A stretch of 64,000 bases of DNA from Salinicola tamaricis (lineage in GTDB: Bacteria; Pseudomonadota; Gammaproteobacteria; Pseudomonadales; Halomonadaceae), in assembly GCF_003006155.1 (NCBI RefSeq), contig NZ_CP023559.1, positions 2,108,001-2,172,000 of the forward strand, in the 5' to 3' direction. Shown piece by piece: positions 4,425 to 44,316 of the stretch (position 1 is the stretch's first letter; the number at the start of each line of letters is the position of its first letter). The translations under genes and the position numbers were made by a program. Below the pieces are notes generated by a model. It saw nothing but the letters and a program-made list of their open reading frames with translations. It ran no database searches and was not told the origin of the DNA.

Positions 4425-4747
4425 GGAACTCTCCGTTGGGTGGCATGGACCGGCTGACCCAGCCTTACGTGGCCGGTGCAAGACGCCAAGACCGCGGCGG
4501 CACGACGCTGAGCGCGGGCATGGACTTCACTGATGATCACCGCATCATGGCGAGTCGGCCTGCGTAAAGTCCAGACCGCTGACGCTGATTCCGACGGCGC
4601 AGGTTATCGTGCCCGTGGCGCTTGGTTGCGCCGGGGTTGCTGTTATCATCGACTTTCATGGGTGTTACAGGGTTCGTCACAGGGGTCGGCATCGGCTATG
4701 ACCCAGGGGCGGGGCTGTCGCGTGTGTTCGAGAGCTGAGGAGTGGCT
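4425..4747. other. divergent intergenic region, 323 bases
   Basis: This lies between the minus-strand dehydrogenase and the plus-strand oxidase and should hold both promoters. A plus-strand candidate at 4622-4649 is listed separately. No gene was recognised. Confidence 0.5.
4622..4649 (+). promoter_or_regulatory. candidate sigma70 promoter upstream of the DadA-like gene
   Basis: TTGGTT (4622-4627), a 16-base spacer and TATCAT (4644-4649) match 3 of 6 and 5 of 6 consensus bases. It lies about 100 bases upstream of the oxidase start. Confidence 0.35.
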
Positions 4748-5983
4748 ATGCAAGCGGATGTGGTGGTGCTGGGCGCCGGCATGATCGGGGTGTCGACCGC
4801 GCTGCAGTTGCAGCGGCGTGGGCGCAACGTGGTGCTGGTGGATCGCCGGGCCCCCGGGGAGGAGACCTCCTACGGTAATGCCGGCCTGATCCAGCGCGAG
4901 GCGGTGGAGCCCTATCCCTTCCCGCACGACAGCCGCATGATCTTCAAGGTCGCGCGCAAGGGCGGCATCGACGTCAACTACCACCCCTCGGCGCTGCCGC
5001 ATCTGGCCTCGCCGCTGGCGCAGTACTGGTGGTGGTCCTCGCCGTCGCGTTACGCCCAGGTGGCGCGTGAGTACAGCCGGCTGATCGCCCACTGTCTGAG
5101 CGAGCACGACAGCCTGATCACCGAGGCCGGCGCCGAGGCGCTGGTGCGCAAGAGCGGTTGGCGCACCGCCTACCGAAGCCAGGCGGCGCTGGAGAAGGGG
5201 TTGGCCAACGCCGAGCGGCTGGCTCAGGAGTACGGGGTCGAGCATGCACCGGTCAGCGGCGACGAGCTGGCGCGGCTGGAACCCGGGCTGACCCAGCGCA
5301 TGGCGGGGGCGGTGCACTGGACCCAGCCGTGGTCGGTGCGCGACCCCGGCGCGCTGGTGGCGAGCTACGCCAGCCTGTTCCAGGCCCGTGGTGGCGCCTT
5401 CGTCAGCGGCGACGCCGCGACCCTCGAGCGCCAGAGCGCCGGCTGGCGCGTGACCACCAGCGAAGGCCCGGTCGAGGCCGCCGAAGCGGTGGTGGCGCTG
5501 GGCCCCTGGTCCGACGAACTGCTGCGGCGTTTCGGCTACCACCTGCCGCTGTTCGTCAAACGTGGCTACCACCGCCACTACGTCATGCCGACGCCGCTGA
5601 GCATGGCAATGCTGGATGCCGAGAACGGCATCATGCTGGCGCCGATGAATCGCGGTCTGCGTATCACCACCGGCGCCGAATTCGCGCGTCTCGACGCCCG
5701 CGCCACGCCGCTGCAGTCGAGCAAGGCCGAGAAGGTCGCACGCGAGCTGCTGGCGATCGGCGATGCGGTCGAGCAGACCCCGTGGCTCGGCGCGCGGCCG
5801 TGCACGCCGGACATGAAACCGGTGATCGGCCCGGCACCCAAGCATGACGGGCTCTGGTTCCATTTCGGCCATGCCCATCAGGGCTTCACCCTGGGGCCGG
5901 CGTCGGGGCGGCTGCTGGCGGAGATGATGTGCGGCGAGACGCCCTATATCGAGCCGGCGCCCTATTCGGCCAAGCGCTTCTGA
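4748..5983 (+). CDS. FAD-dependent D-amino acid dehydrogenase, DadA-like
   Basis: The 411-residue protein begins with the dinucleotide-binding motif VVVLGAGMIGVSTALQL. It continues with the DAO-fold signature ETSYGNAGLI and ends with the FAD-contacting GxxP...GHAHQGFTLGPASGRLLAE. Such enzymes oxidise D-amino acids to 2-oxo acids and pass electrons to the respiratory chain at the inner membrane. The start is set by the ribosome site GAGGAG at 4737-4742, five bases before ATG 4748; the upstream GTG at 4742 overlaps that site. It lies next to the lysine/pipecolate-type genes and might feed them, for example from D-lysine. That role is inference. Confidence 0.85.
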   Translation: MQADVVVLGAGMIGVSTALQLQRRGRNVVLVDRRAPGEETSYGNAGLIQREAVEPYPFPHDSRMIFKVARKGGIDVNYHPSALPHLASPLAQYWWWSSPSRYAQVAREYSRLIAHCLSEHDSLITEAGAEALVRKSGWRTAYRSQAALEKGLANAERLAQEYGVEHAPVSGDELARLEPGLTQRMAGAVHWTQPWSVRDPGALVASYASLFQARGGAFVSGDAATLERQSAGWRVTTSEGPVEAAEAVVALGPWSDELLRRFGYHLPLFVKRGYHRHYVMPTPLSMAMLDAENGIMLAPMNRGLRITTGAEFARLDARATPLQSSKAEKVARELLAIGDAVEQTPWLGARPCTPDMKPVIGPAPKHDGLWFHFGHAHQGFTLGPASGRLLAEMMCGETPYIEPAPYSAKRF

Positions 5984-6179
5984 GAGGGTGTTTACAAAAT
6001 GCCTGCGCTCGACAATACGGCGTTGAAATCGACCTCACTGAACGAAGTTCAGAACGTCCGAAGGACGGCCCGAAGGGCGAGCGGAGCGAGTAAAGTACTC
6101 ATTTACCCCACGTAAACTCCGTTTTTTCGGTCGATTTCGCCTTGTCTTGCCTTCGCTCGTCGAATTTGTAGACACCCTC
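5984..6179. repeat. MITE-like palindromic repeat, copy A
   Basis: This 196-base element is bounded by inverted repeats GAGGGTGTTTACAAA and TTTGTAGACACCCTC (one mismatch). TGA lies directly outside both ends (5981-5983 and 6180-6182). The left TGA is the stop codon of the DadA-like gene. The interior holds three consecutive hairpins with GAA loops (about 6031-6080). Copies B (14608-14818, inverted) and C (41319-41459) are in this window. It contains no reading frame of its own. Confidence 0.88.
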
Positions 6180-6191
6180 TGAGCGGGCGCG

Positions 6192-13328: not shown

Positions 13329-14607
13329 ATGCAAGAGCAATGTCTATGGACCCAGGGGGCGCAGGAGCCGGCGCCCGTCACCGAGACGCTGGATGGCGCG
13401 CTGCGTACCCGCGTGTGCGTCGTCGGCGGTGGGATCACCGGCCTCTCCACCGCGCTGCATCTGAGCGCCAGCGGCACCGAGGTCTGCGTGCTGGAGGCGG
13501 GAGACATCCCCACCGGGGGCTCCGGGCGCAATGTGGGGCTGGTCAACGCCGGCCTGTGGGTGCCGCCGGACGATATCGTCAAGGCGCTCGGCGAGGCCGA
13601 CGGCGAGCGCGCCAACCGGGTGCTCGGCGGGGCCCCGGCCAAGGTGTTCGCGCTGATCGAACGCCATGGTATCCAGTGTCATCCTACGCGCACCGGGACC
13701 CTGCACCTGGGCCACAACGCCAAGGGCTGCGAGGAGCTGGCCCGCCGGCGCGACCAGCTCGTCGCACGCGGGGCACCGGTCGAACTGATCGAGGGCGAGG
13801 CGTGCGAGCGGCTCACCGGGACCCGTCGCATTCGCGCCGCGCTGTGCGACCGCCGTGCCGGTACGCTCAACCCTGCCGAGTATACCCGCGGGCTGGCGCG
13901 TGCCGCCCAGACCCAGGGCGCGGCTGTTCACCCACAGCCCGGTGACGGGCATCCAGCGTGAAGGCGACGGCTGGCGCCTGAGCACCCCCCGCGGCAGTGT
14001 CGTCGCCGACCGCGTGGTGCTCGCCACCAACGCCTACGCCCAGGACAGCTGGAACCAGGCGCGCCAGCACTTCTTCGCCGGCTACTATATGCAGGTCGCC
14101 TCGCGCCCACTCTCAGGGGCGGCGGCGGATGCCATCCTGCCCGAGCGCCAGGGCGCCTGGGATACCCGCACGGTGCTCTCGAGCATCCGCCGCGACGCCG
14201 CCGGGCGGCTGGTACTGGGCAGCCTGGGGCGCGGCGAAGGGCGGCCGCGGGCCTATCTGAAACGCTGGGCCGACCGCATCGCCGGCCACTATTTCCCCGA
14301 GCTGGGCCCGGTCGAGTGGGAGTGCACCTGGAGCGGCCGTGTCGCCTTCACCCCGGACCACACCCTGCGTCTGTTCGAGCCGCTGCCGGGGATCGTCGCC
14401 GCCTGTGGCTACAACGGCCGCGGCGTCACCACCGGCACGGTCGTGGGCGAGGGCTTTGCCGAGTATCTCAGCCGCGGCGACGACAGCCTGCTGCCGCTGC
14501 CGCTCAAGTCCTATCGCGCCATACGCGGGCGCGGACTCTGGAGCGCCGCCTACGAAAGCGGCTTCTCGCTCTATCACCTGGGGCAGTGCCTGCGTCTGGT
14601 GAACTGA
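13329..14607 (+). CDS. FAD-dependent amino acid oxidase, candidate L-pipecolate oxidase (AmaA/OrdL-like), frameshifted
   Basis: About 426 residues. The FAD-binding motif is VCVVGGGITGLSTALHL, followed by the DAO-fold segment GGSGRNVGLVNAGLW and a C-terminal GYNGRGVTTGTVVGEGFAEYL. A frame change near 13925 joins AQTQGA to LFTHSPVTGIQ. The ATG at 13329 is chosen because GAGGAG lies five bases upstream. Related enzymes are gamma-glutamylputrescine oxidase (PuuB/OrdL) and L-pipecolate oxidase (AmaA). The context with an ALDH7 gene favours pipecolate. Its stop TGA is also the TGA bordering repeat copy B. Confidence 0.8.
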
Positions 14608-14818
14608 GAGGGTGTTTACAAATTCGACGAGCGAAGGTGAGACAAGGCGAAATCGGCCGAAAAGAGGACCGGGCTGGCGTCCCAGTTTACGTGGTGTAAA
14701 TGAGTACTTTACTCGCTCCGCTCGCCCTTCGGGCCGTCCTTCGGACGTTCTGAACTTCGTTCAGTGAGGTCGATTTCAACGCCGTATCGTCGAGCGCAGG
14801 CATTTTGTAAACACCCTC
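14608..14818. repeat. MITE-like palindromic repeat, copy B (inverted relative to A)
   Basis: This 211-base element has perfect 15-base terminal inverted repeats GAGGGTGTTTACAAA and TTTGTAAACACCCTC. TGA flanks both ends (14605-14607 and 14819-14821), the left one being the stop codon of the oxidase gene. The interior is the reverse complement of copy A and includes the three GAA-loop hairpins. Copies A and B form an inverted pair about 8.4 kb apart. Confidence 0.9.
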
Positions 14819-14884
14819 TGAGCGGTGCCCGCCCTGGGCGCTCGTTACGTTGAGTGCCCATTGGCCGGCGCGACCGCGGCCGCC

Positions 14885-25947: not shown

Positions 25948-26023
25948 GGGTCGTTAGCTCAGTTGGTAGAGCAGTTGGCTTTTAACCAATTGGTCGTAGG
26001 TTCGAATCCTACACGACCCACCA
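25948..26023 (+). tRNA. tRNA-Lys(UUU), copy 1
   Basis: A 76-base cloverleaf with acceptor stem GGGTCGT/ACGACCC, discriminator A and encoded CCA. The anticodon loop CTTTTAA gives anticodon UUU. The T arm GTAGGTTCGAATCCTAC is standard. It is identical to the next two copies. Confidence 0.98.
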
Positions 26024-26055
26024 CCGCCGACGGGTCGATGCAGTTTGCAAGTTTT

Positions 26056-26131
26056 GGGTCGTTAGCTCAGTTGGTAGAGCAGTTGGCTTTTAACCAATTG
26101 GTCGTAGGTTCGAATCCTACACGACCCACCA
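26056..26131 (+). tRNA. tRNA-Lys(UUU), copy 2
   Basis: Sequence identical to copy 1, including encoded CCA, after a 32-base spacer. It probably shares the same transcript. Confidence 0.98.
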
Positions 26132-26191
26132 TCGATCTCTCCCTCGCCGTTCTCGGCAATCGATTCGACACCCTCGTCGATCGTCTGCAAT

Positions 26192-26267
26192 GGGTCGTTA
26201 GCTCAGTTGGTAGAGCAGTTGGCTTTTAACCAATTGGTCGTAGGTTCGAATCCTACACGACCCACCA
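26192..26267 (+). tRNA. tRNA-Lys(UUU), copy 3
   Basis: Third identical copy with encoded CCA, after a 60-base spacer unrelated to the first spacer. A T-rich stretch follows but no clear terminator hairpin. Confidence 0.98.
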
Positions 26268-35141: not shown

Positions 35142-35174
35142 CGTCGTTATGAGCACTCATTGTCAAACCCGCTA

Positions 35175-35310
35175 ACGATGGGCGCCGGGGGCAGGGCAAA
35201 GCGAGGGTCCTTTGCCAGGGATGGCAAAGGTAGCGCCCAGGGATGGGTTCATAGCGCCCTCGCGACGCCCTGCCGCTGGATAAGCCCACGTCGTCCGCTG
35301 GTTCGGAAGG
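35175..35310 (+). repeat. structured dispersed repeat, family 2, copy 1
   Basis: About 136 bases shared with 35993-36130 and, inverted, 41547-41684. The nested palindrome contains CCTTTGCCA/TGGCAAAGG (9-bp hairpin, GGGA loop), enclosed by GCGAGGG/CCCTCGC and GGCAGGGC/GCCCTGCC. It lies between purC and the end of ppiA. There is no convincing coding capacity. Confidence 0.85.
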
Positions 35311-35907: not shown

Positions 35908-35992
35908 GTAGTAACGCTCCGGTCTTTGATATGAGCACCCTAGCGGGGGTGGCGTCACTAGGCCAGCCTAAGAGCTCATTTCCAAATCCTCT

Positions 35993-36130
35993 GACGATGG
36001 GCGCCGGGGGCAGGGCAGAGCGAGGGTCTTTTGCCAGGGATGGCAAAGGTAGCGCCCAGGGAGGGGTTCACAGCGCCCTCGCGACGCCCTGCCGCCGGAT
36101 AAGCCCACGTCGTCTGGCAGTTGTGAAAGG
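35993..36130 (+). repeat. structured dispersed repeat, family 2, copy 2
   Basis: Same orientation as copy 1, 818 bases away and nearly identical through the core. It keeps the GCGAGGG/CCCTCGC and CCAGGGATGGCAAAGG elements, with TTTTGCC for CTTTGCC on one hairpin arm. Similarity to copy 3 continues at the right end with TTGTGAAAGG (36121-36130). Confidence 0.85.
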
Positions 36131-41304: not shown

Positions 41305-41318
41305 ACAAACCTCCTTGA

Positions 41319-41459: not shown

Positions 41460-41462
41460 TGA

Positions 41463-44316
<2,854 letters not shown>

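Follow-up and report, generated by a model that had tools for sequence, protein, structure and literature searches.

Insertion sequences of the IS1031 subgroup insert at TNA targets and generate 3-bp direct repeats, and insertion at TGA has been reported (accessible part of PMC12016507). The MITE described here and its full-length relatives resemble IS5-family elements of the IS1031 type in the transposase family (NF033580, with PF01609 and PF13340), the TNA target and the 3-bp direct repeat. They differ in that the target extends to C-TNA-G, and in that the two intact transposases are 370 and 386 aa long, with about 95-110 residues preceding the IS5 domain; the subgroup is assigned by the target rule.

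Small repeats of other kinds offer further points of comparison. Pneumococcal BOX elements have a module structure, and Rickettsia palindromic elements are palindromic repeats that touch coding frames, lying in frame inside genes. Unlike the latter, the element described here keeps the stop codon, and its open frame shows no sign of coding selection. BIMEs are mosaics of REPs, which are small interspersed repeats (accessible parts of PMC2817692 and PMC3049150). Both BIME/REP and BOX are, as is the present element, small interspersed mosaic repeats. To our knowledge, no swap of different IS5-type terminal inverted repeats around one core has been described for either.

The element is also comparable with MITEAba12 of Acinetobacter, which is likewise short, non-autonomous and IS-derived (accessible part of PMC6382973). 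The hosts differ, and the insertions described in the accessible part of that source disrupt or truncate genes, none of them lying on a stop codon. In the open-licence PMC literature, neither this element nor any MITE of Salinicola was found described, nor was a bacterial MITE that lands on stop codons. The kind of element is known, and its modular variant is unusual.

Copies in the window and across the genus

The window, that is, the whole stretch of 64,000 nucleotides of the Salinicola tamaricis genome analysed here, carries three copies of the element (A, B and C). Six end motifs with at most three mismatches were found in it, whereas 100 shuffles averaged 0.14 and never exceeded 2. As the first-pass annotation had noticed, 15-base inverted repeats bound every copy and TGA stands outside both ends; the ends of copies B and C pair perfectly, and those of copy A (GAGGGTGTTTACAAA and TTTGTAGACACCCTC) pair at 14 of 15 positions. 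It was also correct in noting that, for copies A and B, the upstream frame terminates at the left TGA. The features, in window coordinates, are listed below.

4742–5983, plus strand: FAD-dependent oxidoreductase gene that precedes copy A (PF01266, E 7.8e-62)
5981–5983, plus strand: left target duplication TGA of copy A, which ends the upstream gene as its stop codon (the orthologous empty site, L332, likewise has TGA there)
5984–5998, plus strand: left terminal inverted repeat of copy A, GAGGGTGTTTACAAA
5984–6179, plus strand: copy A, a 196-bp MITE made of the core and module 1
6037–6091, plus strand: module 1, an optional 55-bp insert of small hairpins, missing from 141-bp copies
6165–6179, minus strand: right terminal inverted repeat of copy A, one mismatch against the left end
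6180–6182, plus strand: right target duplication TGA of copy A
13855–14607, plus strand: DAO frame of 250 codons preceding copy B, matching only positions 164-352 of 353 of PF01266
14605–14607, plus strand: left target duplication TGA of copy B, a stop codon (empty site L324)
14608–14818, minus strand: copy B, a 211-bp MITE in the opposite orientation to the gene
14819–14821, plus strand: right target duplication TGA of copy B
41316–41318, plus strand: left target duplication TGA of copy C, no stop codon
41319–41459, plus strand: copy C, MITE of 141 bp, core only
41460–41462, plus strand: right target duplication TGA of copy C

Copy C does not touch a stop codon; a short-chain dehydrogenase gene on the minus strand has its start side 14 bp away. 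Upstream of copy B, the frame covers the C-terminal half of DAO only, and the gene may be truncated or split. At the stop codon of copy B (14605–14821), the orthologue in genome G010 (locus L301) carries a copy in the opposite orientation that differs in length and inserts, apparently a second hit on one stop codon or a replacement. Elsewhere in the window, three nearly identical tRNA-Lys(TTT) genes stand in tandem at 25948–26267.

Two-ended copies number 22 in the host genome (4.28 Mb, one contig). Across the genus, the element or its core was matched in all 18 genomes, and an exact TNA-flanked end in 13 of the 18; exact left ends also occur in Modicisalibacter coralii, Kushneria aurantia and Halomonas sp. 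EAR18. Altogether, at least 133 paired copies were identified in 16 genomes, which represent 99 insertions independent by flank, and the length ranges from 123 to 225 bp. Being short, with inverted ends, a target duplication, many dispersed copies and no transposase gene, the element is a MITE. The set of close species comprises the host genome (G000), G005, G006 and G016, with 93 two-ended copies, those of G005 and G016 being among the matches listed. Copies whose second end was absent or had more than three mismatches were left out of the counts, and unpaired end motifs were dropped (7 in the host genome and 16 in the four-genome set, some arising by chance). A wider search with the left end gave 40 loci, of which 19 were read, the others being in two genomes already covered; 11 of these 19 entered the count of 99. 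A group of 13 copies joined by a neighbouring repeat was treated as one cluster in that count and omitted from the age comparison. Viral contigs gave no match to one exact left-end pattern. Two plasmid records showed partial matches, none covering 80% of copy A (39% in H1, from Halomonas sp. PA16-9, and 33% in H2, a Salmonella plasmid), which suggests that pieces of the core occur outside Salinicola.

Target rule and transposase partner

Among the copies listed in the four close genomes, 74 of 93 have identical 3-bp flanks and 19 have unequal ones. The identical flanks are TNA in 72 of the 74 cases and, read in the orientation of the element, comprise TGA (44), TCA (14), TAA (10) and TTA (4). 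Counted over independent MITE copies with equal flanks, TNA is found in 75 of 79. The triplet is preceded by C in 91% of the stop set (n=34) and 74% of the non-stop set (n=19), and followed by G in 82% and 89%, respectively. The target of the MITE is C-TNA-G, which shares its TNA with IS5-family elements of the IS1031 type. TGA predominates among the flanks because it is the main stop codon (60 of the 69 predicted genes of the window end with it) and because TGA and TCA are the commonest TNA triplets here. Flanks other than TGA nevertheless occur genome-wide.

Orthologous empty sites were sought in 17 relatives for 11 of the 12 stop-codon copies of the host genome, and 20 of the 22 strongest junction-spanning matches were read, the weaker ones (G010, G002 and G008) being left out. 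At all 20 empty sites, which represent 11 insertions, the orthologue has its TGA stop at that very codon, as the first-pass annotation had anticipated for a duplication. The 3-base flank is a target-site duplication, not element sequence. The proposed duplication with a TGA preference therefore stands as regards the duplication and falls as regards the preference, the target being C-TNA-G. No further TGA is present within 10 bases after the stop codon at 15 of the empty sites; the other five (L319, L327, L333, L334 and L335) have one 4-6 bases past the stop, with the spacer GAGC at L319, and these could be chance or excision footprints.

In the host genome an intact transposase of this type was not found. 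The one PF01609 match has an internal TAG and is located within a decayed IS (L096:897-2070), the ends of which differ from the MITE ends at 1 and 2 of 15 bases; its transposase fragment scores below the NF033580 cut-off (42.9 of 110 bits). IS relatives are present in 12 of 201 family genomes, the host included, and relatives carry IS5-family transposases between the same ends, with 0-1 mismatch to the MITE at each end in L145, L148, L149 and L150. Equal flanks were found in four of eight two-ended IS relatives or fragments (TAA at L145, TCA at L149, TTA at L150 and L156) and unequal flanks in the other four (TAA/TTA at L096, TGA/TTA at L146, GTA/TTA at L148, TGA/TCA at L157). L150 and L156 form a tandem of two intact IS5-family elements; their transposase frames are identical, and TTA stands at each of the three borders, one of which is shared. 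Two intact transposases match NF033580 (IS5 family) above its cut-off, with E values of 1.5e-61 and 1.4e-56, and contain PF13340 and PF01609; helix-turn-helix matches in the transposases of two relatives are weak. Judged by their sequences, autonomous elements with nearly the ends of the MITE appear to exist, decayed in the host genome and others in relatives, and such an IS probably moved these MITE copies.

Insertion at stop codons

Genes were called with a small codon-usage finder built here and trained on the window, no annotation being used. By the scored gene finder, 12 of the 22 copies of the host genome lie on stop codons (about 14 by open frames, two of these on short frames), and 49 of the 93 copies listed in the four close genomes coincide exactly with a stop codon by the same finder. 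For the independent insertions, where the count permits a stop up to 2 bases from the element end, the figure is 53 of 99; 51 of these are exact, and in 2 the stop is one base away. Harmless landing of the element on the stop codon of a gene, which the first-pass annotation had put forward, is therefore common.

The expected share depends on the target assumed, being 9.5% for TNA in non-coding DNA, 29% for C-TNA-G in non-coding DNA and 43% for C-TNA-G beside gene 3' ends. Against 29%, the 53 of 99 insertions remain in excess (p = 3e-7; p = 2e-6 for the 51 exact ones), and so do the 53 of 84 copies beside a 3' end against 43% (p = 2e-4). The initially large excess is mostly a product of the target rule, because the last codon frequently has C in third position and the stop is frequently followed by G. 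Together with the loss of gene-breaking insertions, the target rule accounts for much of the stop-codon share but not all of it, and a nearly two-fold excess over the C-TNA-G expectation is left unexplained. Background C-TNA-G sites comprise 54 at stop codons, 132 in non-coding and 296 in coding DNA (296/484 inside genes). A predicted gene crosses the element border by more than 30 bp in only 2 of the 93 copies listed; this scarcity fits the removal of harmful insertions, and selection presumably removed genic MITE insertions. At G000:1845657-1845797, a gene frame of at least 525 codons enters the MITE and stops inside it, so that the element supplies the C-terminus. Equal flanks have been kept at 46 of 52 stop-codon copies compared with 32 of 46 others (p = 0.025), as expected if the stop codon is under selection.

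Copies at stop codons are also strongly oriented in the close species. In G000, G005, G006 and G016, 36 are in sense and 4 in antisense (p = 2e-7), or 34 and 4 for exact copies, compared with 6 and 6 in other lineages, where one further copy touches stops on both sides. Non-stop copies beside a 3' end number 8 in sense and 11 in antisense, two copies with shifted ends being left out. A palindromic target does not predict the 36:4 bias. An intrinsic link between one end and TGA was rejected as its source, as non-stop clusters with equal flanks have TGA in 9 and TCA in 7 cases. GC is slightly higher in non-stop copies over the 12 bases left of the element (p = 0.013) but not over 6, 25 or 50 bases, and flanking GC, significant at one of four lengths only, was set aside as the cause of orientation. 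Age was rejected as well: shared, and therefore older, insertions lie on stop codons in 13 of 18 cases compared with 39 of 80 others, which is not significant (p = 0.12).

We favour, with a probability of roughly 0.85, the interpretation that the element is a non-autonomous IS5-family MITE, IS1031-type by its target rule, which is moved by a full-length IS with the same ends and is placed by a C-TNA-G target and by tolerance. A DDE transposase from a full-length IS with the same 15-bp ends would mobilise the MITE in trans and cut the 5-bp palindrome C-TNA-G with a 3-base stagger, by which TNA would be doubled on both sides. On one strand or the other, any TNA triplet reads TGA or TAA; a target in frame on the strand in question is therefore always a stop codon, which the TNA duplication would restore on the side of the gene. 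Genic insertions would be lost, and stop-codon and intergenic insertions would survive. In this GC-rich genome, in which a TGA stop commonly has C before it and G after it, stop codons would make up a large share of the harmless targets. Stop-codon landing is real and largely explained by the C-TNA-G target and tolerance; the residual excess, the sense bias and the presence of the modular core on two further end types are not explained in this way.

Modular core, end types and competing explanations

Sister MITEs were found where BLAST matches within the host genome ended at inverted repeats (loci L336-L395). With the MITE ends of copies A–C named type G, two further end types are distinguished, Y (GGGTTTGTACGAAAA) and X (GGCACTGTCTGAAAA), both flanked by TA; one example of each is given here.

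G000 1925836–1925976: sister MITE, end type Y
G000 911414–911608: sister MITE, end type X

In all 15 sister MITEs examined in the host genome, the core is 83-89% identical to G-type references and 6-10 of the 15 end positions differ. We read 62 X and Y copies in five genomes, and the core was matched over at least 60 bases in 56 of them. Two-sided TA flanks are present in 30 of 35 copies of type Y and in 19 of 27 of type X, mostly with C or T before and G or A after the TA; the target of X and Y is YTAR. The nearest neighbour by core identity has the same end type for 116 of 117 G, 30 of 30 Y and 21 of 23 X copies, so the exchange of ends is old or rare, not continual. A different dispersed GC-rich repeat of about 125-153 bp is present in the window (35156–35308, 35975–36127 and 41568–41691); copies related to it (L075, L189, L209, L213 and L233) start with GAGGGTGTTTACAAACCC, which is a G-type end on a different core.

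Optional inserts occupy three fixed places: the 55-bp module 1 or the 16-bp b, module 2 of about 15 bp, and module 3 of 14 bp. All 12 of the 12 module combinations occur among the 192 of 195 copies that were called (2 left out by length and 1 ambiguous), with 11 combinations in G, 5 in Y and 9 in X, some from one copy, and the X and Y sister MITEs share optional modules with the G type. Module 1 of copy A (6037–6091) consists of successive small hairpins with C-GAA-G loops, which are unusually stable in DNA. Copy A as a whole folds into one long branched hairpin (z -5.2 as DNA and -5.9 as RNA). In the 141-bp form, the minus-strand fold has 95 paired double-change cells, where shuffles average 34 (maximum 44), and the plus-strand fold has 72, where they average 28 (maximum 37). 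As the shuffles ignore relatedness, these paired changes support conserved pairing and are no proof of it, and they may stem from RNA, from DNA cruciforms or from copying between the arms. Strand-specific RNA selection, read from G-U pairs that favoured the minus strand, was dropped since the fold of each strand picks its own G-U pairs.

A rather unlikely alternative to mobilisation and tolerance alone is that the structured core functions at stop codons, as a 3'-end hairpin affecting mRNA stability, termination or supercoiling, and that selection keeps the sense copies. The 36:4 bias, the paired changes in the hairpin and the retention of the core across three end types agree with it, as does the placement of X, which has the same core and needs YTAR, so its stop codons are TAA or TAG, rare here (9 of 69 window genes). 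Even so, the stop-codon share of X is 10 of 25 independent copies, where 10.6% would be expected (p = 1e-4), and 8 of these 10 are in sense. The far side of these ten shows TAA or TAG in six, no TA in three and TAT in one, so hits on tyrosine codons or later deletions are possible in the last four; counting only the copies with TAA or TAG on the far side, 6 of 25 are on stop codons (p = 0.04). Similar placement by two target rules would favour selection on placement, and the result for Y is against it: with the same core, Y is on stop codons in 2 of 30 copies and, near them, in 8 antisense and 3 sense copies. A function of the core is further opposed by the even orientation in other lineages and among non-stop copies beside 3' ends, and by the lack of significant enrichment of older insertions on stop codons. 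Over copy A, no intrinsic terminator (GC stem followed by a T run) was found, nor anything in a promoter consensus scan, and in its region Rfam gave nothing above the gathering score, with one match at 15.9 of 50 bits (E 0.93). It is likewise conceivable, though we would not expect it, that one modular hairpin core is the real unit, with three end sets as interchangeable vehicles (C-TNA-G and YTAR) and modules assorting freely at three places, and that it is kept in sense at stop codons because it acts at gene 3' ends.

It seems improbable to us that the transposase complex is steered to stop codons; the guide might be transcription, the termination of translation or the base composition of the flanks, for example, and would determine the orientation as well. 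The nearly two-fold excess over the C-TNA-G null, the restriction of the orientation bias to stop codons, the slightly higher GC left of non-stop copies and the apparent double hit on the stop codon of copy B could all be read in this way. However, two relatives show transposase domains with only weak helix-turn-helix matches, and Modicisalibacter and other lineages are without the orientation bias.

It is very unlikely that the element encodes a small gene. In the 141-bp form the frame after the stop codon is open for 47 codons up to the right TGA, and it is open in 65 of 75 copies of 141 bp. Across 68 unique sequences, however, the non-synonymous/synonymous ratio is 1.03 of expectation, with 12 stop gains seen and 12 expected, and the length variants of 140, 142, 155, 196 and 211 bp shift the frame; with substitutions free of coding constraint, the small gene was rejected. 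That TGA belongs to the element, as the first-pass annotation allowed, or that the element adds a new stop codon truncating the gene, has almost no probability left, since the TGA on both sides of all three window copies is outweighed by copies flanked by TCA, TAA and TTA and by the empty sites, where the gene already ends with TGA.

In conclusion, a non-autonomous IS5-family MITE with a C-TNA-G target would exemplify how a transposon can spare its host by a simple rule, as an in-frame TNA on the right strand is a stop codon that the duplication restores. With one core, three end types and 12 module combinations, the element lends itself to a natural test of recombination among MITE ends, cores and target rules, in related species that have been sequenced and with empty sites included. 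If the core were selected at gene 3' ends, these MITEs would be mobile 3'-end parts.
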